Shown here: positions 40,757 to 60,362 of the stretch, piece by piece
Position numbering within the stretch: the stretch's first letter is position 1
How the letters are laid out: every line of letters begins with the position of its first letter
From: Gammaproteobacteria bacterium
Lineage (GTDB): Bacteria; Pseudomonadota; Gammaproteobacteria; Steroidobacterales; Steroidobacteraceae
NCBI GenBank assembly: GCA_016874235.1
Contig: VGUJ01000002.1
Location: 62,001-126,000, forward strand
Direction: 5' to 3'
Length of the DNA stretch: 64,000 nt
Notes under the pieces: generated by a model
Seen by the model: only the letters and a program-made list of their open reading frames with translations
Told to the model about the DNA's origin: nothing
Database searches by the model: none
Translations under genes and position numbers: made by a program

Positions 40757-40806
40757 GAAAAAAAAGTCAAAGGTGATTGAAACCGACAGCCGTGCTTGAT
40801 ACCGTT
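40757..40806 (+). promoter_or_regulatory. Shared cluster motif, copy A
   Basis: AAAAAAAAGTCAAAGGTGATTGAAACCGACAGCCGTGCTTGATACC between the divergent tetR and SDR operon. Confidence 0.55.
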
Positions 40807-40886
40807 TTCGGGCGTCGACTTCGGCCGGTTCGGCCGTGCACGCTTATTCTGTCACAACCCACTTAACTAACCCGGAGGACAGGGAC

Positions 40887-41645
40887 ATGGGACGCGTCGA
40901 AGGCAAAGTGGCAATCGTCACCGGGGGAGCCCAGGGGCTTGGCAAGGCGGACTGCGAAGCGCTCGTCCGCGAAGGCGCCAACGTCATGATCACCGATATC
41001 AAGGCCTCAGAGGGCAAGGCCCTGGCCGCGGCGCTCAATGCTCAGCGCGCCGGAAGCGCGGCGTTCATGGAACTCGACGTCCGCGACGAAACGCGCTGGC
41101 AAGAGGTCATCGCCGCCACGGTCAAACAATTCGGCAAACTCAATGTCCTCGTCAACAATGCGGGTCTCGTCGTGCCCGCGACCCCCGAGTCCACCACGCT
41201 CGAGCAGTTCAAACTGCATAACGCCGTGATGAGCGAAGGTACCTTCCTCGGCTGCAAGCACGCGATTCCTGCCATGAACGCGAGCGGCGGCGGTTCGATC
41301 GTCAACATGGCCTCGGTCGCCACCCACCTCGGCTACCCGATTTTCTTCGCCTACTCGGCCGCCAAGGGCGCCGTGCGTGGGATGACGAAGTCGATCGCCA
41401 TCTGGTGTCAGATGCAGAAGTACAACATCCGCTGTAACTCGCTTCACCCGGGCGCGACCGATACGCCGATGATCGAGGAAGCCAACCGCCTGCTCGGGCT
41501 CACGCGCGAGTTCTACACTCAGAGCGGACCGGGACTGGGTCAGCCTGAGGACGTGGCGAACGTGGTGGTGTTCCTGGCCTCGGACGAATCGCGATACATC
41601 AATGGTGCTGAGTTGTTGCTCGACAACGGCCTCACCATTCAGTAA
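40887..41645 (+). CDS. SDR family oxidoreductase
   Basis: GKVAIVTGGAQGLGKADCEALVREGA; YSAAKGAVRGMTKS; SD ggagg 14 nt before ATG 40887. Confidence 0.95.
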   Translation: MGRVEGKVAIVTGGAQGLGKADCEALVREGANVMITDIKASEGKALAAALNAQRAGSAAFMELDVRDETRWQEVIAATVKQFGKLNVLVNNAGLVVPATPESTTLEQFKLHNAVMSEGTFLGCKHAIPAMNASGGGSIVNMASVATHLGYPIFFAYSAAKGAVRGMTKSIAIWCQMQKYNIRCNSLHPGATDTPMIEEANRLLGLTREFYTQSGPGLGQPEDVANVVVFLASDESRYINGAELLLDNGLTIQ

Positions 41646-41664
41646 CTGACAGGAGACACGCAGA

Positions 41665-42426
41665 ATGGATCTCGGATTGCGCGGCAAGCGAGCACTCGTC
41701 ACGGGTGCCACCAAGGGTATTGGCAGAGCGATCGTCGACCTCCTCGCCGCAGAGGGTTGCGACATCGCGCTCTGCGCGCGCAGTGAGGACGAAGTCGAAT
41801 CTGCGGTACGTGAAGTTAAAACCAAGGGCGTAAACGTCTCCGGTGGCGCAGTGAACGTGCGCGATGCCGACGCATATAAAGCCTGGCTCGAGCGCAGCGT
41901 GAGCGAGCTCGGCGGATGCGACATCTTCATCCCGAACGTCAGCGCGGGCGGCGGGATGGACTCCGAGAAGAATTGGTGGAAGTGCTTTGAAGTGGACGTG
42001 CTGCACACGGTGCGTGGCTGCGAATTCTTAGTGCCGCATCTCGAAAAGTCGGGTCACGGCAGCATCGTCATCATCAGTTCGACCAATGCGCTCGAGACCT
42101 TCTATGCGCCTATGGCGTACAACGCCATGAAAGCCGCACTCATCACCTACTCCAAACAGCTCTCGCAGTTCATCGGTCGCAAGAATATCCGTGTAAACAC
42201 TGTCTCTCCGGGGCCGATCTACTTTGAGGGCGGCGCCTGGGAAATGATCAAGAGCACCAATCAGAAAATGTACGACGCCACGTTACGCGCGATGCCAAAT
42301 GGTCGATTTGGCGGACCCGATGAAATCGCCAAAGTGGTGGCCTTCCTTGCGAGTCCTTCTGCCTCGGTCATCACGGGCAGCAACGTGGTCGCCGATAACG
42401 GATATACCAAGCGCGTCCAGTATTGA
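41665..42426 (+). CDS. SDR family oxidoreductase
   Basis: GKRALVTGATKGIGRAIVDLLAAEGCDIALCARSE; YNAMKAALITYSKQL. Confidence 0.95.
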   Translation: MDLGLRGKRALVTGATKGIGRAIVDLLAAEGCDIALCARSEDEVESAVREVKTKGVNVSGGAVNVRDADAYKAWLERSVSELGGCDIFIPNVSAGGGMDSEKNWWKCFEVDVLHTVRGCEFLVPHLEKSGHGSIVIISSTNALETFYAPMAYNAMKAALITYSKQLSQFIGRKNIRVNTVSPGPIYFEGGAWEMIKSTNQKMYDATLRAMPNGRFGGPDEIAKVVAFLASPSASVITGSNVVADNGYTKRVQY

Positions 42427-42428
42427 TC

Positions 42429-43196
42429 ATGGCTAGCCTGCCGCGCCGTATCGATGCCTGTCTCGTTGCCGGGGGCAAGTATCACGACATCGACCACGCG
42501 CGGCTGCAGTTGCTGAGTCTGATCAGCGAGCATCCGAACATCCGCTGTCGGGTGCTCGAGGACTATCGCGACATCGACGCCATCGTGACCGCCGATGTTC
42601 TCATTACGTACACCGTCGACGTGGTGCCCGATGAAGCCGGCGCAGCGCGTCTGCGCGACTGGGTGTCGGCGGGACATCGTTGGCTCGCCCTGCACGGTAC
42701 GAACTCGATCCTGCGTTGGTCCAAACCGCACAAAGCCTGGGAAGCGCCCCGCACCGTACCGACCCTCATGCAAACGCTGGGGAGCCAGTTTTTAGCGCAC
42801 CCGCCCATCGCGCCCTATCGGGTCGAGGTCTCTGCGCCGGATCATCCACTCGTTCGCGGCATCGAGCCGTTCGACGCCGATGATGAGTTGTACCTCAGTG
42901 AGTTACATGGCCCGATCGAGGTCCTACTGCACACCCGCTGGTCGGGGCGAACCTCCCTGTTCGTCGAGAGTGATTGGACGCAAGACGAGCCACGCCCCGT
43001 GATGTATCTCAAACGCACCGGAGCGGGCGAAGTACTGTATTTCACGCTCGGTCACTCGCGCGGGCACTACGATATGCGTCCTATCATGGACGAGTACCCC
43101 ACGATCGAACGCGGTAGCTGGAACACACCCGCGTTCGTCGAGATTTTGAGGCGCAGCCTATGCTGGGCCGCGTCAGCCGAACGGATTTCATCATGA
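42429..43196 (+). CDS. ThuA-like domain protein
   Basis: ACLVAGGKYHDIDHARLQLLSLISEHPNIRCRVLEDYRDI; LRDWVSAGHRWLALHGTNS; GEVLYFTLGHSRGHYDM. Confidence 0.82.
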   Translation: MASLPRRIDACLVAGGKYHDIDHARLQLLSLISEHPNIRCRVLEDYRDIDAIVTADVLITYTVDVVPDEAGAARLRDWVSAGHRWLALHGTNSILRWSKPHKAWEAPRTVPTLMQTLGSQFLAHPPIAPYRVEVSAPDHPLVRGIEPFDADDELYLSELHGPIEVLLHTRWSGRTSLFVESDWTQDEPRPVMYLKRTGAGEVLYFTLGHSRGHYDMRPIMDEYPTIERGSWNTPAFVEILRRSLCWAASAERISS

Positions 43197-44590
43197 GCAA
43201 GAAGCCGACCGATACCCGCACCGAAGCTGAGGACGCCGCGCTGCGCGAACGCTCACGCGCCCCAACCTATCGCAATGTTCGGCGTGTCGAACCCACGGAA
43301 GGCCCGGGGACGCCGAGTGCGAAAGCGCCCGACCCCAATCTCGGCGAGGCCATGATTCCGAAAGAGCGCTACACCTCGCGAGGCTTCCTGCAACTCGAGT
43401 GGGAGCGGATGTGGAGGAAGGTATGGCTGCTGGGTGGGCTGGAGTCCGATGTGCCGGAGCCTGGCGATTACATCTGTACCGAAATCGGTCGTGAGTCGAT
43501 CTTGCTCGTGCGACAGTCCGACGGTCGCATGCGCGCGTTCTTTAACGTATGTCTGCATCGAGGAAATCGTCTTCGCCCGACGGGGATTTCAAGCGCAGAG
43601 ACGTTCAAGTGCCAATACCACCACTGGGAGTACGGCATCGACGGACGTTTCGTTCGTATCCCAGATCTCGATACCTTCCCTCAAGGTGCACCACCCTGCC
43701 GTGGTCTCAAAGAATTACCCTGCGATACCTGGGGTGGGTTTGTATGGTTCAGTCTGAACAGAGAGGTGAGTCCGCTCGCTGAGTATCTCGCACCCATTCC
43801 GCAGCATCTCGACCCCTACCATTTTCCGCGCATGGCCCTCACCCGCGACATCACGGTCGAATGGAACTGTAACTGGAAGGCCTCGGTCGACGCCTTCAAC
43901 GAGAGTTATCACGTGCAGGGCATTCACCCGCAACTGCTCTACTACCTGCACGATCTCGACATCCAAATCGATTGCTACGGTCGACACAACCGCTATCTCA
44001 TCCCCTTCGGCACGGTGAGCCCGCGTGTACGCAAGCCGCCGTCCATTCCTGATCCGATCAAGAGCATCATGAAAACCGCAGGGATGGACCCAGCCGACTA
44101 TGATGAGCCGCTCGAGAACCTTCGCCGCGACGTCCAACTTCACAAACGCCGGACCGGCGCCTCGATGGGTCGCGATTACTCACAGCTCAACGACGATCAG
44201 CTAACCGACGACTATCACTACCTGATCTTCCCGAACGTCACACTCAACGTTCACGCGGACGACCTGATGCTGTTCCGGCAGCGCCCGCATCCGACCGATC
44301 CGGACCGGATGCTGTACGACGTGTGGACCTTCGAACTCGTCCCCGAGGGCGCCGAGCGGCCGGCTCGACCCAAGCATCAGTACTTCCGGCACGGCGATAA
44401 ATCGATCGGTCTCGTTCTGGATCAGGACGCGCAGAATCTGCCCGGCGTCCAAGACGGGATGCATTCGGCCGGGCTTGACGGTCTGTGGATCGGCTCCCAG
44501 GAACTGCGAATCAGGCACTTTCATAAGGTGCTGATGGATTACCTCGGCAGCGATGCCGATGAGGCGGCGGCCAAACTCGACGGTCGCTGA
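43193..44590 (+). CDS. Rieske-type aromatic ring-hydroxylating oxygenase alpha subunit
   Basis: CLHRGNRLRPTGISSAETFKCQYHHWEYGIDGRF (CxH...CxxH); NCNWKASVDAFNESYHVQGIHPQ (mononuclear Fe site). Confidence 0.95.
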   Translation: MSKKPTDTRTEAEDAALRERSRAPTYRNVRRVEPTEGPGTPSAKAPDPNLGEAMIPKERYTSRGFLQLEWERMWRKVWLLGGLESDVPEPGDYICTEIGRESILLVRQSDGRMRAFFNVCLHRGNRLRPTGISSAETFKCQYHHWEYGIDGRFVRIPDLDTFPQGAPPCRGLKELPCDTWGGFVWFSLNREVSPLAEYLAPIPQHLDPYHFPRMALTRDITVEWNCNWKASVDAFNESYHVQGIHPQLLYYLHDLDIQIDCYGRHNRYLIPFGTVSPRVRKPPSIPDPIKSIMKTAGMDPADYDEPLENLRRDVQLHKRRTGASMGRDYSQLNDDQLTDDYHYLIFPNVTLNVHADDLMLFRQRPHPTDPDRMLYDVWTFELVPEGAERPARPKHQYFRHGDKSIGLVLDQDAQNLPGVQDGMHSAGLDGLWIGSQELRIRHFHKVLMDYLGSDADEAAAKLDGR

Positions 44591-44600
44591 GGAATCGGCC

Positions 44601-44650
44601 GAAAAAAAGAGCAGAGCTGATTGTTTCCGTCAGCGTTGCCCGTTTTCTAT
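44601..44650 (+). promoter_or_regulatory. Shared cluster motif, copy B
   Basis: AAAAAAAGAGCAGAGCTGATTGTTTCCGTCAGCGTTGCCCGTTTTCTA; contains perfect IR GCTGA-TTGTTTCCG-TCAGC. Confidence 0.55.
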
Positions 44651-44701
44651 CGTTGACTTACCATCGAGGACGCGCGCCGGGCGCGCCCCTCAGGAGATCC
44701 C

Positions 44702-45670
44702 GTGAGCCTTCCTAGAGACCTACTGCTGCGCGCCTATCGGCAGATGAAGACGATCCGCGAATTCGAGGAACGTCTGCACGTCGAAATTCAAACCGGCGAG
44801 ATACCCGGATTCACCCACCTCTACTCGGGCCAGGAAGCCGTCGCCGTCGGCGTCTGCGAACACCTCTCGGACCAAGATTGGATCGCCAGCACCCACCGCG
44901 GTCACGGGCACTGCATCGCGAAGGGTTGTGATGTTCAAGGAATGATGCTCGAGATCTACGGGCGTCGCGATGGCCTCTGCAAGGGCAAAGGCGGCTCCAT
45001 GCACATCGCCGATATGACGAAGGGCATGCTCGGCGCAAATGCCATCGTCGGCGGTGGACCGCCGATCGCTGTCGGTGCGGGTATCGCCTGCAAGATTGCC
45101 AAGTGCGGCAACGTCGCCGTGGCCTTTGGAGGCGACGGCAGCGCCAACCAAGGCACCGTCTTCGAAGCGATGAACCTTGCGGTAGTACTCCGTGCGCCAG
45201 TCATATTCGTATTCGAGAACAATGGTTACTCCGAGCACACCGGCGCTTCGTACGCGGTGGGATCGGGCGACATCGCAGGTCGCGCGCGCGGCTTCGGCAT
45301 GCCCGCCGAAACCTGCGATGGCTCGGATTTCTTTGCCGTCTATGACGCCATGGCGAAATTGTTGAAGACCGCCAGAGCCGGCGGCGGTCCGGCCACGCTC
45401 GAAGCCAAAACCACCCGCTTCTTCGGTCATTTTGAAGGCGATCCGATGCTCTATCGAGCCAAGGACGAGGTCGCCCGTCACCGCGAGCAAATGGACTGCC
45501 TGCAAATTTTCCGCGATCGCGTCGGCAAGGAAGGCTGGCTGCAGAGCGCAGAGCTCGACGCGATCGATACCGACGTGATGGCGCTCATCGATTCGTCGGT
45601 TGCCAAGTCTCGCGCGGCCGTTCCGCCGTCTGCGTCGGACTTGCTCACCGACGTGTACGTCTCCTACTGA
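44702..45670 (+). CDS. Thiamine-dependent 2-oxoacid/acetoin dehydrogenase E1 alpha subunit
   Basis: MKTIREFEERLHVEIQTGEIPGFTHLYSGQEAVAVGVC; FGGDGSANQGTVFEAMNLAVVLRAPVIFVFENNGYSEHT (TPP motif). Confidence 0.94.
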   Translation: MSLPRDLLLRAYRQMKTIREFEERLHVEIQTGEIPGFTHLYSGQEAVAVGVCEHLSDQDWIASTHRGHGHCIAKGCDVQGMMLEIYGRRDGLCKGKGGSMHIADMTKGMLGANAIVGGGPPIAVGAGIACKIAKCGNVAVAFGGDGSANQGTVFEAMNLAVVLRAPVIFVFENNGYSEHTGASYAVGSGDIAGRARGFGMPAETCDGSDFFAVYDAMAKLLKTARAGGGPATLEAKTTRFFGHFEGDPMLYRAKDEVARHREQMDCLQIFRDRVGKEGWLQSAELDAIDTDVMALIDSSVAKSRAAVPPSASDLLTDVYVSY

Positions 45671-45693
45671 CCCGCCCTGCAGAGAAACGATTC

Positions 45694-46719
45694 ATGCGAC
45701 AAATTTCCATGAGAGATGCCATCAACGAGGCTTTACACCTCGAGATGGCGCGTGATCCGCGGGTCATCGTGCTCGGCGAAGACGTCTCGGGTGGCGCAGG
45801 AGGCACCTCCGGTCAACGCGATGCGGCAGGCGGCGTCTTCGGTGTCACCAAGGGCTTGCTGCCGAAGTTCGGCGAAGATCGGGTGATCGATACGCCTATT
45901 TCGGAGTCGGCGATCATCGGCGCGGCTAATGGTGCTGCGCTCGCCGGTCTGCGTCCCGTCGCTGAACTCATGTTCGCCGATTTCCTCGGTGTGTGCTTCG
46001 ATCAGGTATTCAATCAAGCGGCGAAGTTCCGTTATATGTTCGGTGGCAAGACGTCTTGCCCCATCGTCATTCGAGCGGCAACAGGCGCCGGCATGAACAT
46101 GGGCGCCCAGCACAGCCAGTCGATGTACGCCATGGTCACCGGCGTACCCGGCCTCAAAGTAGTCGTACCTTCGAATGCCTACGACGCCAAGGGCCTCATG
46201 CTCACGGCTATCCGCGATGACGACCCCGTGATCTTCTTTGAACATAAGGCGCTCTACCCTCGAAAGTCCGACGTGCCGGAGGGCGACTACACCCTTCCGT
46301 TCGGCGAGGCGAATCTCGTTCGTGAAGGCGAGCACGTCACGGTGGTCGCCATCGGACGCATGGTGTCGTTCGCCGAAAAGGCGCTCGATGCGCTGGCTGC
46401 CGATGGCATCACCGCAGACCTGCTCGATCCGCGCACGCTCTCGCCGCTTGATGATGAAACCATCTACGAAAGCCTCGACAACACAGGCCACCTCGTCATC
46501 ATCGACGAATCGCCACCTCGCTGCTCCGTGGCTGCCGATATCGCAGGACTCGTCGCGAGCAATGCGTTCCATTCGCTGAAGGCTCCCATCGTCCAGCTGA
46601 CGCCGCCGCATACCCCGGTGCCCTTCGCCCGGGAACTCGAGCGCGCCTACGTACCGGGACCGCAGGCCATCGAGGCGGCGATCCGGAAGATGCTCAAAGA
46701 ATCCCGGGCCGCGAGCTGA
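45694..46719 (+). CDS. 2-oxoacid/acetoin dehydrogenase E1 beta subunit
   Basis: MRDAINEALHLEMARDPRVIVLGEDVSGGAGG; DTPISESAIIGAANGAALAGLRPVAELMFADFLGVCFDQ. Confidence 0.95.
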   Translation: MRQISMRDAINEALHLEMARDPRVIVLGEDVSGGAGGTSGQRDAAGGVFGVTKGLLPKFGEDRVIDTPISESAIIGAANGAALAGLRPVAELMFADFLGVCFDQVFNQAAKFRYMFGGKTSCPIVIRAATGAGMNMGAQHSQSMYAMVTGVPGLKVVVPSNAYDAKGLMLTAIRDDDPVIFFEHKALYPRKSDVPEGDYTLPFGEANLVREGEHVTVVAIGRMVSFAEKALDALAADGITADLLDPRTLSPLDDETIYESLDNTGHLVIIDESPPRCSVAADIAGLVASNAFHSLKAPIVQLTPPHTPVPFARELERAYVPGPQAIEAAIRKMLKESRAAS

Positions 46720-46721
46720 CC

Positions 46722-47900
46722 ATGTCACGAATCCACGCGATTACGATGCCCAAGTGGGGTATCGAGATGCAGGAAGGTGCGATCACTTCTTGGCATGTCG
46801 ATATCGGCGGTACGGTCACTCGAGGAGCACAACTTCTCGATGTCGAGACGGAGAAAATCGTCAATACGGTGGAGGCGAGCGTCGAAGGAACACTGAGCCG
46901 AATCATCGGCTCGGTCGGCGACACGCTACCGGTGGGTGCTCTCGTCGGCATCGTCTGCGAAGGCGAGGTCTCCGAGGCTGACATCGATCGTTTCGTACGC
47001 GAATTCAAGGCCGCAGACGCCTCGTTCGAGCCCGAGACAAGCGCCGGTGCATCCGAGGAGGCGACGTCAGCAGCTCCCGCGGCGGAGCGTGACGATGAAG
47101 CTCGAGTGAGCCCGATCGCGAGACGCCTTGCAGAGAAGCTCGGTGTCGACCTCTCAAAGATTACGGGCACGGGTCGCAACGGTCGCATCTCGAAAGAAGA
47201 CGTTGAGTCTTACCACGCGAAACAGTCGACGGCGGTCGAGGCGGTACCGATGAGCGCCATGCGATTGGCGATCGCGCGACGACTCACCGAATCCAAGCAA
47301 ACCATTCCGCACTATCGGCTGCACGCCGATGTCGATTGCGCAGCGCTCGACGCCTCACGCAGCCAGCACGCCGCGGCAGGCCGCAAGATCTCGGTCAACG
47401 ATCTGCTGATCTTCGCGCTCGCGCGCACGCTCGCCGAGTTTCCGGACGTCAATGCCTGCCTCGAGAACGACACGATCTTGCGTCGACGCAGTGCCGACAT
47501 TGCCCTCGCGGTGTCGACCCCCGGCGGTCTCATCACGCCGGTTATCCGAAATGCCGACACCAAAGATGTCTTGCAACTCGCCGAGGAATCGCGTGAGCTC
47601 GCGGGCAAGGCCCGTGACAACAAACTGACGAGGGAAGAGATCACGGGCGGCAGTTTCACGCTGTCTAACCTCGGCATGTTTGGCATCGACGCGTTCGATG
47701 CCGTCATCAATCCGCCTCAGGCGGCCATCTTGGCTGTCGGCAGTATTCGTGACGTCGTCGTACTGCGTAACGGATCGCCTGCGGCGGGCCGACTCATGAC
47801 GCTCACGCTGTCTTGTGATCATCGCGTCGTCGATGGTGCGCTCGGCGCCCGGTTTCTTTCTGCACTCAAGCAACGTATCGAAGGGGGTATCTTCGTATGA
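46722..47900 (+). CDS. Dihydrolipoamide acyltransferase E2 (single lipoyl domain)
   Basis: TMPKWGIEMQEGAITSWHVDIGGTVTRGAQLLDVETEKIVNTVEA; VSPIARRLAEKLGVDLSKITGTGRNGRISKEDV; LSCDHRVVDGALGARFL. Confidence 0.95.
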   Translation: MSRIHAITMPKWGIEMQEGAITSWHVDIGGTVTRGAQLLDVETEKIVNTVEASVEGTLSRIIGSVGDTLPVGALVGIVCEGEVSEADIDRFVREFKAADASFEPETSAGASEEATSAAPAAERDDEARVSPIARRLAEKLGVDLSKITGTGRNGRISKEDVESYHAKQSTAVEAVPMSAMRLAIARRLTESKQTIPHYRLHADVDCAALDASRSQHAAAGRKISVNDLLIFALARTLAEFPDVNACLENDTILRRRSADIALAVSTPGGLITPVIRNADTKDVLQLAEESRELAGKARDNKLTREEITGGSFTLSNLGMFGIDAFDAVINPPQAAILAVGSIRDVVVLRNGSPAAGRLMTLTLSCDHRVVDGALGARFLSALKQRIEGGIFV

Positions 47901-49738
47901 CGAAGCCAACGATTGCCATTCTGCTGCTCGCTTTACTCGCGCTGCCAGCCGGCGCGTCCACGCCTGCAGGCGAGGAGATCTACCAGCGCGCCTGCGCCGC
48001 CTGCCACGAGGGTGGCGTCAAAAAAGCGCCGCACAAAATGTTCCTGCAGATGATGCCTGCAGACGGCATCCTCAATTCGATGAATCAAGGCATCATGCAG
48101 ATGCAGTCGGCTTCGCTCAGTGCGGCAGACCGTCGCACGGTGGCGGAGTATCTCGCCGGACACACGGTCGAAGACGCTCTCGCTCGCGCCCAACCGCAAC
48201 TTTGCGCAGGCCCGGCCAAAGATTTCGATCTCGGCAAAGGCGTCAAGAAAGTCGGCTGGGGTGTGAACCGTGAGAACCATCGACTCATTCCAGCAGACGT
48301 CGCGGGCCTGGCAGCCGCCGACCTGCCCAAGCTCGAATTGAAATGGGCGTTCGCCTTCCCCAATGCTCAACGTGCACGCTCGCAACCCACCGTCGCGTTG
48401 GGCGCCGTGTTCATCGGCAGCCAGAACGGGACGGTGTACGCTCTCGATAAGAAAACCGGTTGTGTGCGATGGAGTTTCCGCGCGAGTGCGGAGGTGCGTA
48501 CCCCCGTCATCATCGAAGCGGACGAAGGACCGTCCAAATCACGACCGATCGCTTACTTCGCAGACTTGATCGCCCGCGTGTACGCGGTCGAGGCTACGAC
48601 CGGCAAACTGCTCTGGGTGGCCAAGGTGGATGAGCATCCGAACGCGACCGTAACCGGCGCGCCTGTGCTCTACAAGGGTCGTCTGTACGTTCCGGTGTCT
48701 TCACTCGAAGTGACGTCGGCCGCAGACCCGGCTTACCCATGCTGCAGTTTCCGCGGTTCAGTCGTCTCGCTCGATCCGACGAACGGCAAAGAAATTTGGC
48801 GCACCTACACGATTGATGAGGCGCCGGTCGAAGTCGCCAAAACCAAAGTGGGTACTCCGATCCTCGCGCCCTCAGGCGCGCCGATCTGGAATAGTCCGTC
48901 CATCGACACGGCGACGGAAACGCTGTACGTCGGCACGGGCGAGAACTATTCGTCACCGGCCAACGATCGAAGCGATGCGCTGCTCGCGCTGGAACTCAAG
49001 ACAGGAAAGCTGCTCTGGCACCGACAGAAGACGGCAAACGACGCCTGGAACGTCGCCTGCATGATGCAGGACAACCCAAACTGCCCGGCTGAGAACGGCC
49101 CGGACTTCGACTTCGGCGCCGGCACCATCGTCGCGCGCACGAGCGCCGGAAAACCCATCCTGCTCGCCGGTCAAAAGTCTGGTGATGTGTATGCGCTCGA
49201 TCTGACCGATCAAGGTCGTCCGATCTGGCGCAACAAGGTGGGTCGTGGCGGCATTCAAGGCGGCGTGCACTTCGGCATGGCGCTCGAAGGCAAGACCTTG
49301 TTCGTGCCGATCTCCGACATGTCGAACCCGGAAGCTGAGACCAATCTGCACGCAGTCCCCTCGAAGGCGGGTCTCTACGCCGTCGACATCGACACCGGCC
49401 GCATGCTCTGGTCACAACCGGCTAACAACATTTGCAACGGCCGCACGTATTGCGAGCCGGGTATCTCTGCGGCGATCACGGCCATGCCAGGTGCGGTGCT
49501 TGCAGGCCACATGGACGGACGCCTGCGCGCCTATGACAGCGCAACGGGTCGCGTGATTTGGGAGTACGACACGACGCGCGAAGTCGTCACGGTCGATGGT
49601 TCCAAAGCGAGCGGAGGATCTTTCGGGGGTGGCGCGGGTCCCGTCGTGCAGGACGGCATGCTGTTTGCGGCATCCGGTTACGGCACGTATTTCCACATGC
49701 CGGGCAACGTCCTGTTGGTATTCGGATTGCCGGAATAG
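47897..49738 (+). CDS. PQQ-type beta-propeller quinoprotein dehydrogenase with N-terminal cytochrome c domain
   Basis: Signal peptide, RACAACHEGG heme motif near N-terminus, then repeated GTVYALDKKTGCVRWSFRASAEVRTPVI-type propeller blades; similar in layout to polyvinyl-alcohol-dehydrogenase-like enzymes. Confidence 0.9.
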   Translation: MTKPTIAILLLALLALPAGASTPAGEEIYQRACAACHEGGVKKAPHKMFLQMMPADGILNSMNQGIMQMQSASLSAADRRTVAEYLAGHTVEDALARAQPQLCAGPAKDFDLGKGVKKVGWGVNRENHRLIPADVAGLAAADLPKLELKWAFAFPNAQRARSQPTVALGAVFIGSQNGTVYALDKKTGCVRWSFRASAEVRTPVIIEADEGPSKSRPIAYFADLIARVYAVEATTGKLLWVAKVDEHPNATVTGAPVLYKGRLYVPVSSLEVTSAADPAYPCCSFRGSVVSLDPTNGKEIWRTYTIDEAPVEVAKTKVGTPILAPSGAPIWNSPSIDTATETLYVGTGENYSSPANDRSDALLALELKTGKLLWHRQKTANDAWNVACMMQDNPNCPAENGPDFDFGAGTIVARTSAGKPILLAGQKSGDVYALDLTDQGRPIWRNKVGRGGIQGGVHFGMALEGKTLFVPISDMSNPEAETNLHAVPSKAGLYAVDIDTGRMLWSQPANNICNGRTYCEPGISAAITAMPGAVLAGHMDGRLRAYDSATGRVIWEYDTTREVVTVDGSKASGGSFGGGAGPVVQDGMLFAASGYGTYFHMPGNVLLVFGLPE

Positions 49739-49743
49739 TCACG

Positions 49744-51435
49744 ATGAGCAAAAAAACACCTACCATGGAATGGGAAGGTGGCGAGGATCTCGCCACGCTT
49801 CGAATCGCCGTCACGACGATGGGCGATTTGCTGCTCACGGCAGCAGATCGAGATCCCAACAAGACCGCACTCGTCTTTCCTGAGAAGAGCTACACGTATT
49901 CGGAGCTCGCGGCTCGTGCGATCCGTCGTGCGCGCAGCTTGCAGGCGCTGGGTGTCAGACCCCGTGATCACGTGGGCATCCTTATGCCCACCTGCCCTGA
50001 GTTCGTCGAACTTTATTTCGCAATCGCCTTGTGTGGCGCCGTCATCGTGCCGATCAATGCGAGGTATCGCTCGGGAGAGATCGGCTACGTCGTGGAAAAC
50101 GCCGATCTTGTGACGCTGATCACCACGGACGCCGTGGCCGATCAGGTCAACTTCGTCGAACGACTCGAGGGCGCCTTGACCGACCTGCCCTTGCAGAAAG
50201 ACCCGATGTCCTTGCGACTTTCCGCTGCGCCGAAGTTGCGAAACGTCGTGCTCTACGGTCGCGGGGGACGTCCTGGCTTCGTGTCCGAAGCCGACTTTGA
50301 CGCTGCCGCAGATCGAATCGCTGAGATCGAAGTGCACAAGACTCGGCTTCGTACGCGCGTTCGCGATACCGCGCTCATGCTCTACACCTCGGGTACGACG
50401 GCGAACCCGAAGGGCTGCCTCATCACTCACGAGGCGCAGGTCCGTAACTCCATCGCGCTCGGCCGTCATCGTTATCGCCTGACGCGCGAGGACTCCCTCT
50501 GGTCGCCGCTGCCGATGTTCCACATCGCCGCTGTGCTACCCATGCTCGCAATCTTCGATGTCGGCGGTACGTATCTCACGATGGGATACTTCGACGCCGG
50601 CGTCGCACTCAAGATGCTTGAGGATCACAAGGTCACGGCGACCTATCCGAGCTTCGTCACCATCATGCAGGGGCTCATCTACCACCCCGATTTTCCGACG
50701 CGCGACCTCTCGAGCATCCGCCTCATGAACTCCAACTTCGCCGTTCAGCCGCCCGGCGTCGCAGAGCCCATCATGAAAGCGATGCCCGTCGCCATACAGG
50801 TGGGCAGCTTCGGGATGACCGAAGCCTCGGGCACGGTCTCGACGGGATCCCCCGGAGAACCGGAGTCTCAAAGAATTTCCCGCTTGGGTCGTCCGTTGCC
50901 AGGACTCGAAGTCCGCGTGATCGATCCGACCACCGGTCGTGACGTCTCAACCGGCGAACGCGGTGAGGTCCTGGTCCGCGGATACAGTCTTTTCGAGGGC
51001 TACTATCGAGATCCGGTCAAGAGCGCCGAGGCACTCGACACGGACGGCTGGTTCCACACCGGTGATATCGGCTCGGTCGATGCGCAAGGCACGATCATGT
51101 TCCACGGCCGCTTCAAAGATATGCTCAAAGTAGGCGGTGAAAACGTCGCGGCAGCCGAGATTGAAGCGCAACTACAAAAGCACCCATCGGTGAAACTTGC
51201 GCAGGTGGTCGGAATTCCGGATGCCAAATACGCCGAGGTGCCCGCCGCCTTCGTCGAACTTCAACCGAACGCCGCCGCTACCGAGCCTGAGCTCATCGAG
51301 TTCTGCAAAAAAGATGTCGCGGGCTTCAAGGTTCCTCGACATATCCGGTTCGTGACCGAGTGGCCGATGTCTTCTAGCAAGATTCAAAAGTTCAAGCTGC
51401 GTACCGCGCTCGTCGAAGAACTCAAACTCGGTTGA
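49744..51435 (+). CDS. AMP-dependent acyl-CoA synthetase/ligase
   Basis: MLYTSGTTANPKGCLITHEAQ; GSFGMTEASGTVS; GWFHTGDIGSVDAQGTIMFHGRFKDMLKVGGENVAAAEIE. Confidence 0.95.
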   Translation: MSKKTPTMEWEGGEDLATLRIAVTTMGDLLLTAADRDPNKTALVFPEKSYTYSELAARAIRRARSLQALGVRPRDHVGILMPTCPEFVELYFAIALCGAVIVPINARYRSGEIGYVVENADLVTLITTDAVADQVNFVERLEGALTDLPLQKDPMSLRLSAAPKLRNVVLYGRGGRPGFVSEADFDAAADRIAEIEVHKTRLRTRVRDTALMLYTSGTTANPKGCLITHEAQVRNSIALGRHRYRLTREDSLWSPLPMFHIAAVLPMLAIFDVGGTYLTMGYFDAGVALKMLEDHKVTATYPSFVTIMQGLIYHPDFPTRDLSSIRLMNSNFAVQPPGVAEPIMKAMPVAIQVGSFGMTEASGTVSTGSPGEPESQRISRLGRPLPGLEVRVIDPTTGRDVSTGERGEVLVRGYSLFEGYYRDPVKSAEALDTDGWFHTGDIGSVDAQGTIMFHGRFKDMLKVGGENVAAAEIEAQLQKHPSVKLAQVVGIPDAKYAEVPAAFVELQPNAAATEPELIEFCKKDVAGFKVPRHIRFVTEWPMSSSKIQKFKLRTALVEELKLG

Positions 51436-51474
51436 TCACGATCGTCATCCACTAGCCCCTTAGGAGTACTCAAC

Positions 51475-51774
51475 ATGGCCGTCTTCTTCGCCCTGCTCAA
51501 AGTCAAAGCTGGAAAGGAAAAGGACTTCGAGCGCTTGCAGCGCGAGCTCTCAAAGCTCACCCACGACAACGAACCAGACACCATCGTGTATGACGTGGTC
51601 CGTCATCGCGAAAAGAAGGGCGTCTATGCCGTATACGCGCGCTTCAAAGATGAGGCGGCCTTCGAGTACCACCAGAAGACACCGTTCCACGATCGACTCG
51701 TCCCGCCGATCTTCGAGTGTCTCGATGGCGGCGCTGACGGTATGACGCTCGATTTCTACGATCACGTCGGTTGA
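51475..51774 (+). CDS. Antibiotic biosynthesis monooxygenase (ABM)-fold protein, putative quinol monooxygenase
   Basis: MAVFFALLKVKAGKEKDFERLQRELSKLTHDNEPDTIVYDVVRHREKKGVYAVYARFKDEAAFEYHQKTPFH. Confidence 0.85.
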   Translation: MAVFFALLKVKAGKEKDFERLQRELSKLTHDNEPDTIVYDVVRHREKKGVYAVYARFKDEAAFEYHQKTPFHDRLVPPIFECLDGGADGMTLDFYDHVG

Positions 51775-51787
51775 GGGGCGACCGACT

Positions 51788-52863: not shown

Positions 52864-52885
52864 CCGTTCGATTTCGGAGACCCTC

Positions 52886-53686
52886 ATGCACTCATTTAAA
52901 GAAAAAGTCGTGGTTATTCTCGGAGCGGCTGGACGTGACAACATGGGCCAGGTCATGGCGCGACGCTTCGCAGCCGAAGGTGCCAAGGTCGTGGTGGCCG
53001 GGCGTCATGAGAGCCCTCTCGCCGACCTCGCAACGGAGATCGGCGGCGAGTCCCAGGTCTGCGATATCACGCGGAAAGCGGACGTCGAGGCGCTCGCCGA
53101 GGCCGTCTGGCAACGACACGGCCGAGCGCATGTCGCCATCAATTGCACAGGCTGGGGGCTGCTCGCAAAACTCCTCGATACAACCGAAGAGCAACTCGAC
53201 CGACTGTCGGCTCTACACTTCAAAGGCACGTTCTTTTTCATGCAGGCTTTCGTGGGTCGGATGTCGCGCAGCGGAGGCGGTTCGGTGATCACGGTGTCCT
53301 CCGCCTCGGTCCGGGCCGTGCTCTACCACCACGCAGCGTACATCGCGACTAAAGCCGCCTCGGAAGCACTCGTCCGATGCTTCGCCAATGAATTCGGAGG
53401 TAAGGGTGTCAAAGTGAATGCCCTCGCGCCCGGATTCACCGAAACACCGATGACAGCGACGGAGTCGAAACTCCCGGGTCTCCTCGACCTCTTCCGCAAG
53501 GAGTATCCGCTTGGGCGGATCGGGACCGCTCAGGATGTAGCAGAAGCCGCGCTTTGGCTCGCCTCCGAGGCGAGCTTCGTCACCGGCGAGACGCTGCAGA
53601 TCAATGGCGGTCTCACGCTGCGTCGCAACCCCTCGCCGGCGGAGATCAATGCGGCGCTGAAGGCGGCCGCGCCGCCTCGTAGCTGA
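52886..53686 (+). CDS. SDR family oxidoreductase
   Basis: KVVVILGAAGRDNMGQVMARRFAAEGAKVVVAGRHE; YIATKAASEALVRCFANEFGGKGVKVNALAPGF. Confidence 0.94.
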   Translation: MHSFKEKVVVILGAAGRDNMGQVMARRFAAEGAKVVVAGRHESPLADLATEIGGESQVCDITRKADVEALAEAVWQRHGRAHVAINCTGWGLLAKLLDTTEEQLDRLSALHFKGTFFFMQAFVGRMSRSGGGSVITVSSASVRAVLYHHAAYIATKAASEALVRCFANEFGGKGVKVNALAPGFTETPMTATESKLPGLLDLFRKEYPLGRIGTAQDVAEAALWLASEASFVTGETLQINGGLTLRRNPSPAEINAALKAAAPPRS

Positions 53687-53716
53687 GCTACGGGCAGCGT
53701 CGACTCACCGCAACGC

Positions 53717-54022
53717 TCAGCCCTTCGGGGCCTCGAACGGATCGAGATACTCACGCACGTAAGGCTCGGCAAGACAATCGACGATCCCGGGTGCGTGCTC
53801 GGCGAGCGCCGGCGAGGTCATGTGAGCTTCTTCAGCGGCAGCACTCGCGAACGACTCGATGACCGCATAACGACGCGGTTCGCGCAGCTTGAAGAATTCG
53901 TAGTAGAGCGTATCGGGCTCGGTCTTGCGAACGACTTCCGTCAGCGCCTTACAACGCTGCACGAACTCCGCCTCACGACCTTCCTTGATGAGCATCCTCG
54001 AAACGAACGTGACTTTGGACAT
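53717..54022 (-). CDS. ABM-fold protein, putative quinol monooxygenase
   Basis: MSKVTFVSRMLIKEGREAEFVQRCKALTEVVRKTEPDTLYYEFFKLREPRRYAVIESFASAAAEEAHMTSPALAEH. Confidence 0.87.
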   Translation of the reverse strand: MSKVTFVSRMLIKEGREAEFVQRCKALTEVVRKTEPDTLYYEFFKLREPRRYAVIESFASAAAEEAHMTSPALAEHAPGIVDCLAEPYVREYLDPFEAPKG

Positions 54023-54060
54023 AGTAGTTCTCCCCAAAAATACTGATACGAGACGCAATC

Positions 54061-55221
54061 TCAGCGTCGTTGGTCGAACCGACGCCCGACCATCGCCGCC
54101 GCAATATTGACCTTCTGGATATCAACCGCGCCACCGGCAATGCCCCACCCCCAGGCATCGCGCAGGCGACGCTCCATGGGATATTCCCGCGAGTAACCGT
54201 AGCCGCCCATCAACTGCACAGCATGTCCGCACACTTCACGAGCGATTTCATTGGCAAAGCACTTGGCCATCGAAGACTCGAGCACGGAAGGCATACCGTG
54301 TTGCGCATTCACGGCCGCGCGCCAAATGAGCAACCTCGCCGCGTCGACTCGCATGCGCATCTCAGCGAGACGCAGCTGTACGGCTTGAAACTCGACGATG
54401 GGCTTACCAAACTGCTTGCGCTCCTGCACATAGGCGATCACGTCATCGAGCGCACCCGAGGCCTGCGCGAGCGCCATCGTGGCGTTGCCGCAGCGCTCGA
54501 GGTCGAAGGCCTCCATGAGCTTTTTGAATCCACCGGCAGGGACGACGATGTTCTCGAGCGGGATCGCGCAGTCCTCGAATACGAGATCAGAGGACGGCAC
54601 ACCACGAAAACCCATGAGATTTTCTCGAGCGCCGAAGGTCATTCCGGGCGTACCGCTCTCGACGTAGACCGCACCGATGCCCTTCGGGCCCGGATCATCC
54701 GACAAGCGGCAGTACACGACGTAGCCGTCGGCATGGCCGCCGCCCGAGCACCAGCGCTTGGTGCCGTTGACGACCACGCGATCTTTTTCGATGCGCGCTC
54801 GAGTCGTGAGGTCGGTCAGCGCCGAGCCCGCGTTCGGCTCGGACATCGACACCGCGACGATCTTTTCGCCACGACACACAGCCGGCACGACTTTGCGGCG
54901 TAGTGATTCGCCCGCAAAGTGTTCGATGGCTCGAACGGGGCCGACACAGGACTCGAAGACCGGGAAGGCTACGGCGCCCGAGATCTTGGCCAACTCCTCG
55001 ATGACGATCAGCGCTTCGAGATTGCCGAGCCCCAACCCACCGTACTCCGACGACACGTTGATGCCGAGGAAACCCATCTCGGCAAACTCTCGTACGAGCT
55101 CGTGGGAGGGCGGTTCGTCGTGCTCTTCGCAATGCTTGGCATGTGCAGGAAGCCGCTCTTGGGCATACTTGCGTGCAGTCTCCTGCAGCGCTTGTTGTTC
55201 CTCGGTCAAAGAGAAGTTCAT
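54061..55221 (-). CDS. Acyl-CoA dehydrogenase
   Basis: MNFSLTEEQQALQETARKYAQERLP; VAVSMSEPNAGSALTDL; QLMGGYGYSREYPMERRLRDAWGWGIAGGAVDIQK. Confidence 0.95.
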   Translation of the reverse strand: MNFSLTEEQQALQETARKYAQERLPAHAKHCEEHDEPPSHELVREFAEMGFLGINVSSEYGGLGLGNLEALIVIEELAKISGAVAFPVFESCVGPVRAIEHFAGESLRRKVVPAVCRGEKIVAVSMSEPNAGSALTDLTTRARIEKDRVVVNGTKRWCSGGGHADGYVVYCRLSDDPGPKGIGAVYVESGTPGMTFGARENLMGFRGVPSSDLVFEDCAIPLENIVVPAGGFKKLMEAFDLERCGNATMALAQASGALDDVIAYVQERKQFGKPIVEFQAVQLRLAEMRMRVDAARLLIWRAAVNAQHGMPSVLESSMAKCFANEIAREVCGHAVQLMGGYGYSREYPMERRLRDAWGWGIAGGAVDIQKVNIAAAMVGRRFDQRR

Positions 55222-55235
55222 TACAAGGTCTCCCG

Positions 55236-56450
55236 ATGTCTAAATCCGAATCCATCCTGAGCGGCATCCGCGTACTCGACTTTGGTCGATACGTCGCCGG
55301 CCCCTACTGCGCCACCCTCCTCGGCTATCTCGGCGCGGACGTGATCCGCATCGAAAAGCCCGACGGCGGCGAAGACCGCTACATCGCCCCCGTCACTTCG
55401 CAAGGCGAAGGCGGTGTGTGGCTGCAGACGGCCTGCAACAAAAAATCGCTCACGCTCGACTTCAACAAACCCGAATCGCGCGAGATCGTCCGTCGACTCG
55501 TCCAAAGCGCCGATGTGGTCGTGGTCAATCTGCCGCCCGCGACCCGAGAGTCGCTCGGTCTTGATTACGCGACCTTGTCGGCAATCAACCCGAGGGTCAT
55601 TCTCGCCTCTCAGACGGCATTCGGCGAGCACGGGCCCTATGCGAGCCGAGGAGGCTTCGACGGCGTCGGTCAGGCGATGTCCGGCGCCATGTTCATTACG
55701 GGCACGCCCGGCGCACCCGCGAAAGCGGCCGGTCCATACGTCGATTTCTCGACGGCTGTGCTCTCGGCCTTCGGAGTGCTTGCGGCGCTCATCGAGCGCG
55801 ATCGATCGGGATGCGGCCAACATGTACAGGCAGCCCTGCAAGCCACGGCCCTCGCCGTCTTCGGCTCTCATCTCATCGAACAGGGCGTCACCGGTATCAA
55901 CCGCGTTGGCACCGGCAATCGCGTACAGACGTCTGCGCCTTCCGACGTCTTCGCTACCCTTGATGGTCACGTCCTCACGCACGTCGTCGGCAACGGACTT
56001 TTCCGGCGTTGGGTAAAACTCATGTGTGGGCAGGATACCGCCGCGCAGAAACACTGGCTCGACGATCCGCGGCTGCAGGATGATGCGGGACGGGGCGAGC
56101 ATTCGACGGAGATCCTCTCCACCATGCGGAGCTGGTGTGCGACTCGAACGACCGAGCAAGCAATCGCCCAACTCGAGGCCGCCGGCCTGCCGGCCGGACC
56201 CGTCTACACACCTCAACAAGCGCTCGACGACCCGCAGGCCAAAGCCATGCAGTGGTTCGCCCACGTCGCCGATTATCCTGGTCTGCCACGCCCCGCGTCG
56301 GTACCGAACCTGCCGCTGCGCTTCTCGCGATCGCCGGGCGGCATCGAACGCGCGCCTCCGACGCTCGGCGAACATACCGACGTCTTGCTCGCCGAACTCG
56401 GCTACGACGACGCCGCACGCGCCACGTTGCGAAGCAACGGAGTCGTCTGA
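55236..56450 (+). CDS. CaiB/BaiF family CoA-transferase
   Basis: LSGIRVLDFGRYVAGPYCATLLGYLGADVIRIEKPDGGEDRYIAPV; NKKSLTLDFNKPESREIVRRLVQSADVVVVNLPP. Confidence 0.95.
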   Translation: MSKSESILSGIRVLDFGRYVAGPYCATLLGYLGADVIRIEKPDGGEDRYIAPVTSQGEGGVWLQTACNKKSLTLDFNKPESREIVRRLVQSADVVVVNLPPATRESLGLDYATLSAINPRVILASQTAFGEHGPYASRGGFDGVGQAMSGAMFITGTPGAPAKAAGPYVDFSTAVLSAFGVLAALIERDRSGCGQHVQAALQATALAVFGSHLIEQGVTGINRVGTGNRVQTSAPSDVFATLDGHVLTHVVGNGLFRRWVKLMCGQDTAAQKHWLDDPRLQDDAGRGEHSTEILSTMRSWCATRTTEQAIAQLEAAGLPAGPVYTPQQALDDPQAKAMQWFAHVADYPGLPRPASVPNLPLRFSRSPGGIERAPPTLGEHTDVLLAELGYDDAARATLRSNGVV

Positions 56451-56472
56451 AGCGCAATCGCGGGACAAGACG

Positions 56473-57402
56473 TTACGCAACGGGCGTTACCCGATACCCG
56501 AGACGCGGAACATGGACGAGTCGTCCGCGTGCGCGCTCAGCGCTTGGACGGATGACTACGCGATCCGCCGCCACGACATGAATCGTCCCTCGCATGACGC
56601 CACGTCGCGTGTCATCGGGGGTGATGTCGACGAGCTGGCCCGCACGCAATCTCTGGGCATCTGTCGCATCAATGGAGGCTGGCGTGACGGTTCGTGCGGC
56701 GTCCGCCTCCGCGAGCGCTGAGGCTGCCGTGATCGACTGGCGCTCAACGACCCAGAGCGCCTGCATTCGCGTCTCCCACGCCGCGAGTGACGGGAAGCCC
56801 GATAGCAACTCGGACGCCACATCGGCAAATGCACCCCGCGCCATCCAGACAAAAGGATAAGCCTGAACATCCGCGAGGCCGGGCGCCGCACCTGAGAGGA
56901 ACTGACGGCCATCGTCGAGCTGAGCGTCCAGCAACGCGGCGTGCGCGCGGAACTGCGATCGCGAGTGCGCAGCCTCGCCTCCGACTGATTCGAAGTCGAT
57001 ATCCGGAAAGAGATACTGTCGATCGTCGCGAAACTCTTTTGGCCATTGCGCCAACCCGATCGACAGCACGATCTTGAGCGCCGAGCGAAAGAACGCATCG
57101 CTCCAGCGAACGAGCGCAAGCTCGAGTCCACCGCCAAGCGGGAACAGCGTCGGCGATGGCTGAATACGCTCGAGTTCACGTGCGATCAGCTGAGAGTCGA
57201 TGAAGACCTCGGCACCCACCTGCAGCACGGGCGTCCCTCGATAGCCGCCCGTCAGAGCGAGCAGATCATCTTTGGGAGGCATCATCGGTGTCTCGACCCA
57301 ACAAAAGGGCAGCCGCTTGATCGCAAACATACCGAGCGCCTTCTGCGTGAACGGCGAGGCGTCATAACTCCACAAGATCACTGAATCTTTGACTGTCGTC
57401 AT
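56473..57402 (-). CDS. Glutathione S-transferase family protein with C-terminal extension
   Basis: VILWSYDASPFTQKALGMFAIKRLPF...GGYRGTPVLQVGAEVFIDSQLIARELERIQPSPTLFPLGG; C-term DATDAQRLRAGQLVDITPDDTRRGVMRG...GRLVHVPRLGYRVTPVA. Confidence 0.88.
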   Translation of the reverse strand: MTTVKDSVILWSYDASPFTQKALGMFAIKRLPFCWVETPMMPPKDDLLALTGGYRGTPVLQVGAEVFIDSQLIARELERIQPSPTLFPLGGGLELALVRWSDAFFRSALKIVLSIGLAQWPKEFRDDRQYLFPDIDFESVGGEAAHSRSQFRAHAALLDAQLDDGRQFLSGAAPGLADVQAYPFVWMARGAFADVASELLSGFPSLAAWETRMQALWVVERQSITAASALAEADAARTVTPASIDATDAQRLRAGQLVDITPDDTRRGVMRGTIHVVAADRVVIRPSAERARGRLVHVPRLGYRVTPVA

Positions 57403-58109
57403 AATTTCTTTGCTCCTGCCTTGAAAGAGGCCGAGACGACAGAAGCCGCAGTCTGACCATAGAGGTAACGATGGCCTTCCTCATCGGCGTGGCGCTCATG
57501 ACCTAGCTCGAGTGCCCGCTTGACGGCCGGACGCCCCTCGATCTCGGCAAACCAGCGTCGGATCGCCGGGAATGTATTCAAATCCTGACCCTGCCGCTCG
57601 TGAGGTTTGATCCAAGGCCAGATGGCCATATCGGCGATGGAGTACTCGCCAGCGACGAATTCTTTGACGGTCAACTGACGCTCGAGGACACCATAGAGGC
57701 GATTTACTTCGTTGGTATAGCGCGTGATGCCGTAGGGCACGTGCTCGGAGGCGAAAGCGCGGAAGTGGTGCGCCTGCCCCGCCATGGGGCCGAGCCCTCC
57801 GACCTGCCAGAAGAGCCACTGCATCGCCTCGTGTCTCGCGCGAGCTTCCGATGGCAGGAAAAGCCCTGTTTCCTCAGCCAAATACGTCAAAATTGCACCG
57901 GATTCGAAAAGCGAGAGTGCGCCACCCTCCGCCTCGTGATCGACGATGGCAGGAATCTTGTTGTTGGGTGAGATCGCAAGGAACGCCGGATCAAACTGCG
58001 CACCACGCGTGATGTCCACGGTCATCAAGCGATAGGGCAACTGGCACTCCTCGAGCATGAACGCCACCTTGAGGCCGTTCGGTGACGGGTACCAGTAGAG
58101 ATCGATCAT
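57399..58109 (-). CDS. Glutathione S-transferase family protein (YfcG/YghU-like)
   Basis: IDLYWYPSPNGLKVAFMLEECQLPYRLMTVDITRGAQFDPAFLAISPNNKIPAIVDHEA...SLFESGAILTYLAEETG. Confidence 0.93.
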   Translation of the reverse strand: MIDLYWYPSPNGLKVAFMLEECQLPYRLMTVDITRGAQFDPAFLAISPNNKIPAIVDHEAEGGALSLFESGAILTYLAEETGLFLPSEARARHEAMQWLFWQVGGLGPMAGQAHHFRAFASEHVPYGITRYTNEVNRLYGVLERQLTVKEFVAGEYSIADMAIWPWIKPHERQGQDLNTFPAIRRWFAEIEGRPAVKRALELGHERHADEEGHRYLYGQTAASVVSASFKAGAKKL

Positions 58110-59023
58110 GCGCGAGTGATGCGATAACCGAGCCGCGGAAAATGAGTGACGATCTCGCCTGCCTCGACGGTATGCCGCCGAACAGCGACCTCGTTGATCG
58201 TCAGTGTGACGAGATCTCCTTCAACCGGAATTTTGCCGTAGTCGTCCGGCGCGACGCAGACCCGATCACCGGCGGTGAAACCAAGCGGGTCGCTTGCATC
58301 GACGCCGACCGGTACGTGGGGCGTCGAGGCCTTGGCCAAGGCGAGCGCGTCGTCAGCGCTGATCTCGCTGCGAGTGCCGCGCGAACACGCAACCATTCGG
58401 CTCTCCCACTCGCGAAGTTTTTTGAAGGGCTCGAGTAAATCCGCTGCAGTACCGATGTTTCCGCGCGCCATCCACACCGGGAAATACGCGTCGATGTCGG
58501 CATACGACACCTGCGAACCGAGCACGAAGGGGCGTCCATCCGCGAGCATCAATTCGACGAGTTCAAGACCCGCGCGGAACTGCGTATAGAGATGGGGGAT
58601 GTCACTCTCGAGCGCGTCGAAGTCCATGAAGTTGAAAAACGACTTGCGATCGTCGATGACCGCCTTCGGGATAAAGGCTTTGTTGAGCCCCATCGAGAGC
58701 CCCGCACCCGGATCGAAGAAGCTGCGATCGCTCCACGGCGTCAACGCGAGCGACAGCCCAAGCGAACCTTGCGGAAAAAGTGTGGGCTGCGGATAGCGCC
58801 GTTCGAGCTCGCGAACGATGAGCCGGGTATCGCAATAAACGTCGGCGCCCACCTGCAGCACGGGGATTTTCCGGTAGCCACCGGTGAGGACACCCAGCTC
58901 AGGGCGCGGCATCACCATCGAGACCTGAACCGACCGCCACGCCAGGCCCTTGAGGCCGAGCGCGAGGCGGATTTTCTCGCCGAAGGGGGACGGATCGTGG
59001 TGATGCAGGATGGGGTCGTTCAT
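58106..59023 (-). CDS. Glutathione S-transferase family protein with C-terminal extension, paralogue of 56473-57402
   Basis: ILHHHDPSPFGEKIRLALGLKGLAWRSVQVSMVMPRPELGVLTGGYRKIPVLQVGADVYCDTRLIVRELERRYPQPTLFP; C-term DASDPLGFTAGDRVCVAPDDYGKIPVEGDLV...GEIVTHFPRLGYRITRA. Confidence 0.88.
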   Translation of the reverse strand: MNDPILHHHDPSPFGEKIRLALGLKGLAWRSVQVSMVMPRPELGVLTGGYRKIPVLQVGADVYCDTRLIVRELERRYPQPTLFPQGSLGLSLALTPWSDRSFFDPGAGLSMGLNKAFIPKAVIDDRKSFFNFMDFDALESDIPHLYTQFRAGLELVELMLADGRPFVLGSQVSYADIDAYFPVWMARGNIGTAADLLEPFKKLREWESRMVACSRGTRSEISADDALALAKASTPHVPVGVDASDPLGFTAGDRVCVAPDDYGKIPVEGDLVTLTINEVAVRRHTVEAGEIVTHFPRLGYRITRA

Positions 59024-59051
59024 GGCCCGAAACTGTACACCGGAGCCGCCT

Positions 59052-59098
59052 AAAAAAACAGTCAAGCCTGTTTATTTCCGACTGGCTCGGTCGTATAC
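59052..59098 (+). promoter_or_regulatory. Shared cluster motif, copy C
   Basis: AAAAAAACAGTCAAGCCTGTTTATTTCCGACTGGCTCGGTCGTATAC between the divergent GST and Rieske operons. Confidence 0.55.
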
Positions 59099-60360: not shown

Positions 60361-60362
60361 CG

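Follow-up and report, generated by a model that had tools for sequence, protein, structure and literature searches.

The window analysed here, the whole stretch of 64,000 nucleotides (G000:C2:62001-126000), belongs to the genome (G000; 1.8 Mb, 27 contigs) of an uncultivated gammaproteobacterium, with metagenome-assembled genomes of Steroidobacteraceae/Gammaproteobacteria as its closest named relatives. It carries an uncharacterised catabolic island in which three intergenic regions share a sequence block, named A, B and C, and in which a gene for a TetR-family regulator adjoins block A. A preliminary description of this DNA had placed the blocks at 40758, 44602 and 59052, ahead of an SDR-SDR-ThuA-Rieske operon, an E1/E2 operon and a Rieske-HMGCS-thiolase operon, with the tetR gene divergent at A. 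The blocks match letter for letter at each of these positions, and the gene content assigned by Pfam and NCBIfam is as described. In window positions, the features are:

40758..40798, + strand: putative operator A, A-tract plus AAAAAAGTCAAAGGTGATTGAAACCGACAG...; core 40760-40782, second half-conserved element to 40798
44602..44642, + strand: putative operator B, core 44604-44626 (AAAAAGAGCAGAGCTGATTGTTT), second element to 44642
59052..59077, + strand: putative operator C, AAAAAAACAGTCAAGCCTGTTTATTT, with the inverted repeat AAACAG (59056-59061) / CTGTTT (59068-59073)
40090..40734, - strand: TetR-family regulator, proposed binder of A, B, C (and of D, a weaker site past the window); divergent from sdr1, gene start 24 bp from block A
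40887..44590, + strand: unit A, with SDR 40887-41645, SDR 41665-42426, ThuA-like protein 42423-43196 and Rieske oxygenase 43160-44590 (Pfam)
44702..51435, + strand: unit B, with 2-oxoacid dehydrogenase E1-alpha, E1-beta and E2, a cytochrome c-PQQ dehydrogenase-like protein and an acyl-CoA synthetase (Pfam, NCBIfam)
59149..63945, + strand: unit C rightward, with Rieske oxygenase, HMG-CoA synthase-DUF35 fusion (start ~60342), thiolase and SDR (Pfam, NCBIfam)
56473..59023, - strand: unit C leftward, three GST-fold proteins, gst1 58106-59023, gst2 57399-58109 and gst3 56473-57402 (Pfam)

Aligned on a common TG (40774 in A, 44618 in B, 59069 in C), the three blocks run without gaps. As to the A7-A8 tract first described ahead of them, in C an additional base separates it from the block, and the length of the tract is variable, only about four A's being nearly invariant.

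The product of 40090-40734, called here the 40090 TetR, is a member of the TetR family by its domain and predicted fold. TetR_N (PF00440) scores 51.8 bits (cut-off 24), and the predicted model (predicted local distance difference test, pLDDT, 82.8) has ten helices and Foldseek matches to TetR proteins with probability 1.00. No C-terminal domain scores above its cut-off, TetR_C_31 (PF17940) reaching 21.8 bits for 27.4. The protein falls in no NCBIfam equivalog (PsrA, FadR, FasR, BetI, AcrR, RutR and others; best score 49.6 bits for a cut-off of 150), and solved structures include no close relative, the matches being mostly at the level of the helix-turn-helix, as for TtgR. Seven public records of metagenome-assembled genomes (MAGs; L104, L109, L124, L129, L164, L165 and L167) carry the 40090 TetR at 59-85% identity. 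Their titles (Klebsiella pneumoniae, Candidatus Planktophila, Janthinobacterium, Rhizobium, Kuenenia) look mislabelled.

Distribution of the motif and of the tetR gene

Profile R1, a sequence-only model, covers 32 positions and was trained on A, B and C together with their orthologs. In the full 1.8-Mb genome it identifies exactly three sites: A (27.6 bits), C (27.1 bits) and B (24.7 bits). The next-best score, 8.3 bits, is copy B read on the other strand. Matches of training sites to the full profile occur by construction. In leave-one-out models, each made from two copies and their orthologs, the missing copy ranks third (B), third (A) and fifth (C) of 383,766 positions, ranks 1-2 being the training copies. 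The genome scan, set beforehand as a refuting test, does not find the motif at unrelated promoters of this genome. A loose IUPAC pattern, used as first search, was rejected, its counts away from A, B and C being close to chance. A general promoter feature of highly expressed genes (UP element plus -35), read by no dedicated regulator, would explain why all three copies have an A-tract and -35/-10-like hexamers. It is refuted by the genome-wide scan, with only three copies in 1.8 Mb, and the motif is not found in 48 related genomes, has a conserved palindromic symmetry and is linked to a TetR gene, so that we give this explanation practically no credit.

The comparison set holds 60 genomes, G000 counted in, with many related MAGs and some short contigs. 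Synteny of the island extends to seven further genomes of the genus, and partially to G025, G052 and G037. The blocks are kept upstream of orthologous genes, and the neighbouring intergenic DNA is mostly not. Block A is conserved in 11 genomes of the order, with GTCAAAGRTGATTGAAACC unchanged in all 11 and a mean pairwise identity of 0.93 in the core versus 0.29-0.38 in the flanks. Block B precedes the orthologous E1-alpha gene in six genomes, its site being found also in G004 and G008; the contrast is weaker there (0.69 in the core, 0.82 in the next 16 bases, 0.56 downstream). Block C keeps AAAAAAACAGTCA.G..TGTTT.TTT in nine genomes by alignment, with a mean pairwise identity of 0.90 versus 0.24-0.56 in the flanks, and the profile adds G052 and G037, where the site lies further upstream.

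The motif has the same distribution as the 40090 TetR. An ortholog is present in 12 of the 60 genomes and strong sites occur in these same 12, with none in the 48 others; the expectation value of the best site is 4e-6 to 1.1e-3 in the tetR-positive genomes and above 0.02 in the tetR-negative ones (Fisher p ~7e-13 for co-occurrence, kinship not corrected for). The contrast is found inside the genus (8 of 24 genomes), inside family f1 (G025) and inside family f4 (G039 with, G053 without) and therefore does not oppose one clade to another, the 12 genomes being still not independent. A single weak match in tetR-negative G002 (L225, ~1618) was discarded; it is a self-complementary, A/T-flanked AAAAAGCAGCTTTGATTTTT, probably a hairpin terminator.

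A similarity search with the 40090 TetR found 335 homologs. The named loci gathered by TetR similarity, 80 in all, comprise 68 with orthologs (at least 58% identity) and 12 with distant homologs (44-47%). An A-type site lies ~35-160 bp upstream of the tetR start, in divergent orientation, in ~59 of the 68 ortholog loci, and each of the 12 distant homologs (Halieaceae, Microbulbifer) has a C-type or related site in its neighbourhood. The Microbulbifer strains of L172 and L174, which are cultivable and carry the pair, have a TetR of 45-46% identity. The 68 ortholog loci hold 127 sites of at least 18 bits versus one in a negative control of 37 loci of unrelated TetR/Rieske genes. The choice of the 40090 TetR as best candidate regulator is supported by these comparisons, its phylogenetic profile being that of the motif and sites lying upstream of most orthologs. 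All three promoters almost certainly carry a site for the putative repressor encoded beside A.

The sites could be bound by another regulator travelling with the island, either the TetR encoded at 37279 or one encoded elsewhere. The 37279 TetR does belong to the island in the genus, and several regulators could travel together, but its distribution does not match that of the motif, which argues strongly against it: G009, G027, G032, G033 and G036 have this TetR but no motif, and G037, G039 and G052 have the motif but not this TetR. The motif, for its part, adjoins the 40090 TetR even in different neighbourhoods, such as those of G039 and Halieaceae. We regard a different binder as very improbable.

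Site architecture and proposed mode of control

The preliminary description had the block overlapped by -35-like hexamers. Hexamers resembling -35 and -10 elements are present in all three copies, and the putative operator covers the -35 at A and C. The candidate promoter elements are:

40777..40805, + strand: promoter A, -35 TTGAAA (40777-40782), 17-bp spacer, -10 TACCGT (40800-40805), extended TG; overlaps operator A
59071..59099, + strand: promoter C rightward, -35 TTTATT (59071-59076), 17-bp spacer, -10 TATACT (59094-59099); overlaps operator C
59032..59037, - strand: leftward -10-like TACAGT of the GST operon, TANAGT in orthologs; tentative, only ~9 bp from the annotated ATG

The -10 pattern TANNNT of promoter A is kept in orthologs (TACCGT, TAACGT, TACCTT, TAGCGT), and that of promoter C is found at the same offset as TATAAT/TATCAT. 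Since C lies between the GST start (59023) and the Rieske start (59149) and has conserved -10-like elements to its left and right, it probably serves both the leftward GST operon and the rightward Rieske operon.

The consensus of the 92 distinct C-type sites is AAAAACAGTCANGNCTGTTTGTTT, with the inverted repeat AAACAG-N6-CTGTTT around a shared dyad centre. Mean pairing is 0.74 at this centre, 0.60 at the second-best one and ~0.2-0.4 elsewhere, and the perfect form is the 18-bp palindrome AAACAGTCATGACTGTTT. In A-type sites the left half (AAAAAGTCA) and TG.TT are retained, and behind them comes another conserved element, ending in TGACTG; in Woeseiaceae the first of the two elements is a perfect CAATCACGCGTGATTG. 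Sites A and B are variants of the same half-site as the C type, probably doubled. The spacing and half-sites of QacR differ from those of this A/B element. The TGACTG of A overlaps the extended -10, which leaves two possible causes for its conservation. Of the dyads described at the outset, GCTGA-N9-TCAGC is present in B, where G001 shows a compensatory change; it is missing from A and C, and orthologs keep neither GG..CC of A nor AGCC..GGCT of C as a conserved symmetry. A single 16-bp box for all sites, CARTCA-N4-TGAYTG, was likewise rejected: it suits Woeseiaceae (0.95) and ranks with the better centres in the other sites, but for the C type a centre at -4.5 is better.

From these comparisons we infer direct binding, repression rather than activation, autoregulation and an inducer. 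A, B and C are very likely operators of a TetR repressor encoded at 40090-40734, which would be released by a pathway intermediate to let all units be co-expressed. In the absence of inducer, a dimer of the 40090 TetR would occupy half-sites of the AGTCA/TGACT type that overlap the -35 in front of sdr1, E1 and the Rieske gene and, at A and C, separate these units from divergent tetR (A) or GST (C) genes, so that RNA polymerase would be kept off. An operator over the -35 is in a classical position for a TetR repressor. The intermediate, for which a CoA thioester, terpenoid- or aromatic-type acid is plausible, would bind the C-terminal domain and release the repressor, and all units would be expressed together, including the TonB receptor gene just past the window. 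The divergent position of tetR beside A suggests that the regulator probably also controls its own gene.

The 40090 TetR might bind the same sites as an activator, or as an activator at A/B-type sites and a repressor at C-type sites. The sites span ~-60 to -35 beside weak -35 hexamers (TTTATT, TTGTTT), with the A-tract upstream, and the A/B and C/D sites differ in symmetry, all of which would suit such a role. However, they also cover the -35 and, in A and B, the spacer, which is where repressor sites usually lie; C has a gene leading away from it on either side; and most TetR proteins repress (PMC4424350). Activation appears quite improbable to us.

Several observations weigh against repression of all units by the 40090 TetR. 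The tetR orthologs of L125, L126, L156 and L157 have only degenerate A-type sites or none, and the dyad centre is not the same in A, B and C sites, an unusual feature for sites bound alike by a single dimer. The compared genomes are often kin, so that counts are not independent, and the scan of the 60 genomes scored part of the candidate places per genome, so that weak sites could escape it. A model made from C only did not place A or B near the top of the scan; the membership of C rests therefore on comparative data.

Copy C could thus stand outside the A/B regulon, under a second, related regulator with an AAACAG-N6-CTGTTT operator. The C-only model and the different dyad centre speak for this separation, as does a TetR paralog (53-54% identical) that adjoins AAAAAACAGGTTGATTTGTTT in G037 and G052. 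Against it, C-type sites in other species precede sdr2, E1-alpha (L161) and tetR itself, an A-type and a C-type site are ~1 kb apart on one contig of G039, and G000 has just one protein matching the 40090 TetR. A separate regulator for C has, in our judgement, a low probability. The paralog's site is related to, but different from, the sites described above and lies between the paralog gene and a divergent SDR gene:

L213 2742-2768: paralog site AAAAAACAGGTTGATTTGTTT
L214 1968-1996: paralog site AAAAAACAGGTTGATTTGTTT

The paralog and AAAAAACAGGTTGATTTGTTT make a natural pair for work on operator specificity.

With repression by the 40090 TetR as the preferred reading, one regulator might still read two architectures for different outputs: the single 18-bp palindrome (C/D) and the longer, doubled and less symmetric site with its nearly invariant 23-bp core (A/B). 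The regulator could, for instance, repress tightly at A, where it would also control its own gene, and exert simple repression at C. Such a graded or dual-mode control of the pathway, kept across Steroidobacteraceae and Woeseiaceae, is a possibility that we consider unlikely on present comparisons.

Extent of the putative regulon

The preliminary description linked 18 kb of genes into one regulon. Sequence comparison supports this link and extends the putative regulon to the GST genes that diverge from C and, past the window, to a TonB receptor gene, which is preceded by a fourth site:

G000:C2:129349-129371 (L075 3349-3371), - strand: site D, weak putative fourth operator CAAAAAAACAGGACAGATTGATT, 3.3 kb past the window, 16 bits

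Site D is 45 bp upstream of a gene for an 874-amino-acid TonB receptor, divergent from another Rieske oxygenase, and has stronger counterparts in G001, G007 and G020. TonB receptor genes with a site are found in 17 loci, that of G000 with site D among them. In other species, C-type sites also stand ahead of Rieske genes and acyl-CoA dehydrogenases. Where genes of the island stand apart, as gst2-gst3 on separate contigs in G020 and G004 and E2 on another contig in G020, they still carry their own site. Expression of the whole catabolic cluster is probably under common on-off control. This would tie ~20 genes of the island, coding for Rieske oxygenases, GSTs, a 2-oxoacid dehydrogenase, a thiolase, HMGCS-type enzymes and a TonB receptor, to one switch, so that they can be studied as one pathway. 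The putative operator-repressor pair lets an inducer be sought, which would point to the substrate of the pathway. The same pair occurs in several families of gammaproteobacteria, for the most part known from metagenomes.

Some neighbouring genes have features of their own. The product of 60342-61817, which adjoins the thiolase, is an HMG-CoA synthase-like protein fused to a DUF35/OB-fold domain; its PDB match is to HMGCS and DUF35 of 6esq, a solved complex in which the two are separate chains. The 1165-amino-acid protein encoded at 33685-37182 (- strand) joins B12-binding, MeaB GTPase and methylmalonyl-CoA mutase domains in the layout of an IcmF-type fused isobutyryl-CoA mutase. The TetR of 37279-37908 has a TetR_C_24 domain and weak similarity to FadR/KstR, and possibly controls the adjoining enoyl-CoA hydratase gene.

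Relation to known TetR-family systems

A literature search for the operator sequence and for TetR/Rieske/GST clusters, with most subscription journals outside its reach, found no description of either. The operator consensus AAACAGTCANGNCTGTTT matches none of the consensus sequences of KstR, MbdR and EdcR. We found no earlier description of the 40090 TetR or of its putative operator. The kind of control is ordinary.

KstR (PMC1995591), MbdR (PMC4424350) and EdcR (PMC8700777) are tested precedents of such control on catabolic gene clusters. KstR is a TetR-family regulator of sterol and lipid catabolism in mycobacteria, with 74-83 genes in actinobacteria and the operator TnnAACnnGTTnnA (PMC1995591). 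The system of the window resembles it in having a tetR gene beside a divergent target, with probable autoregulation, in a palindrome that emerges from aligned orthologous intergenic regions, in the putative control of several catabolic operons and in sites that lie between divergent genes and over promoter elements (PMC1995591). Unlike KstR, it would have the operator AAACAGTCATGACTGTTT and ~20 genes, and NCBIfam gives no KstR match for the 40090 TetR.

MbdR of Azoarcus sp. CIB controls a 3-methylbenzoate pathway through the operator ATAC-N10-GTAT, with 3-methylbenzoyl-CoA as inducer (PMC4424350). There too one TetR repressor acts on several promoters of a catabolic cluster through an 18-bp operator over promoter elements, with autoregulation (PMC4424350), an arrangement suggested here by sequence comparison. 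MbdR operators cover -35/-10, and their sequence and the genes of MbdR differ from those of the island. The paired TetR dimers of QacR type on one long operator, cited in PMC4424350, could be an analogue of the doubled A/B element, with 19 bp from centre to centre. EdcR of Caenibius tardaugens, a TetR repressor of estradiol degradation, has the operator TnnCnnTACnAnTnGTAnnGnnA overlapping the -10 (PMC8700777). The island shares with it a palindromic, here putative, operator over catabolic promoters and differs from it in the genes of the pathway.

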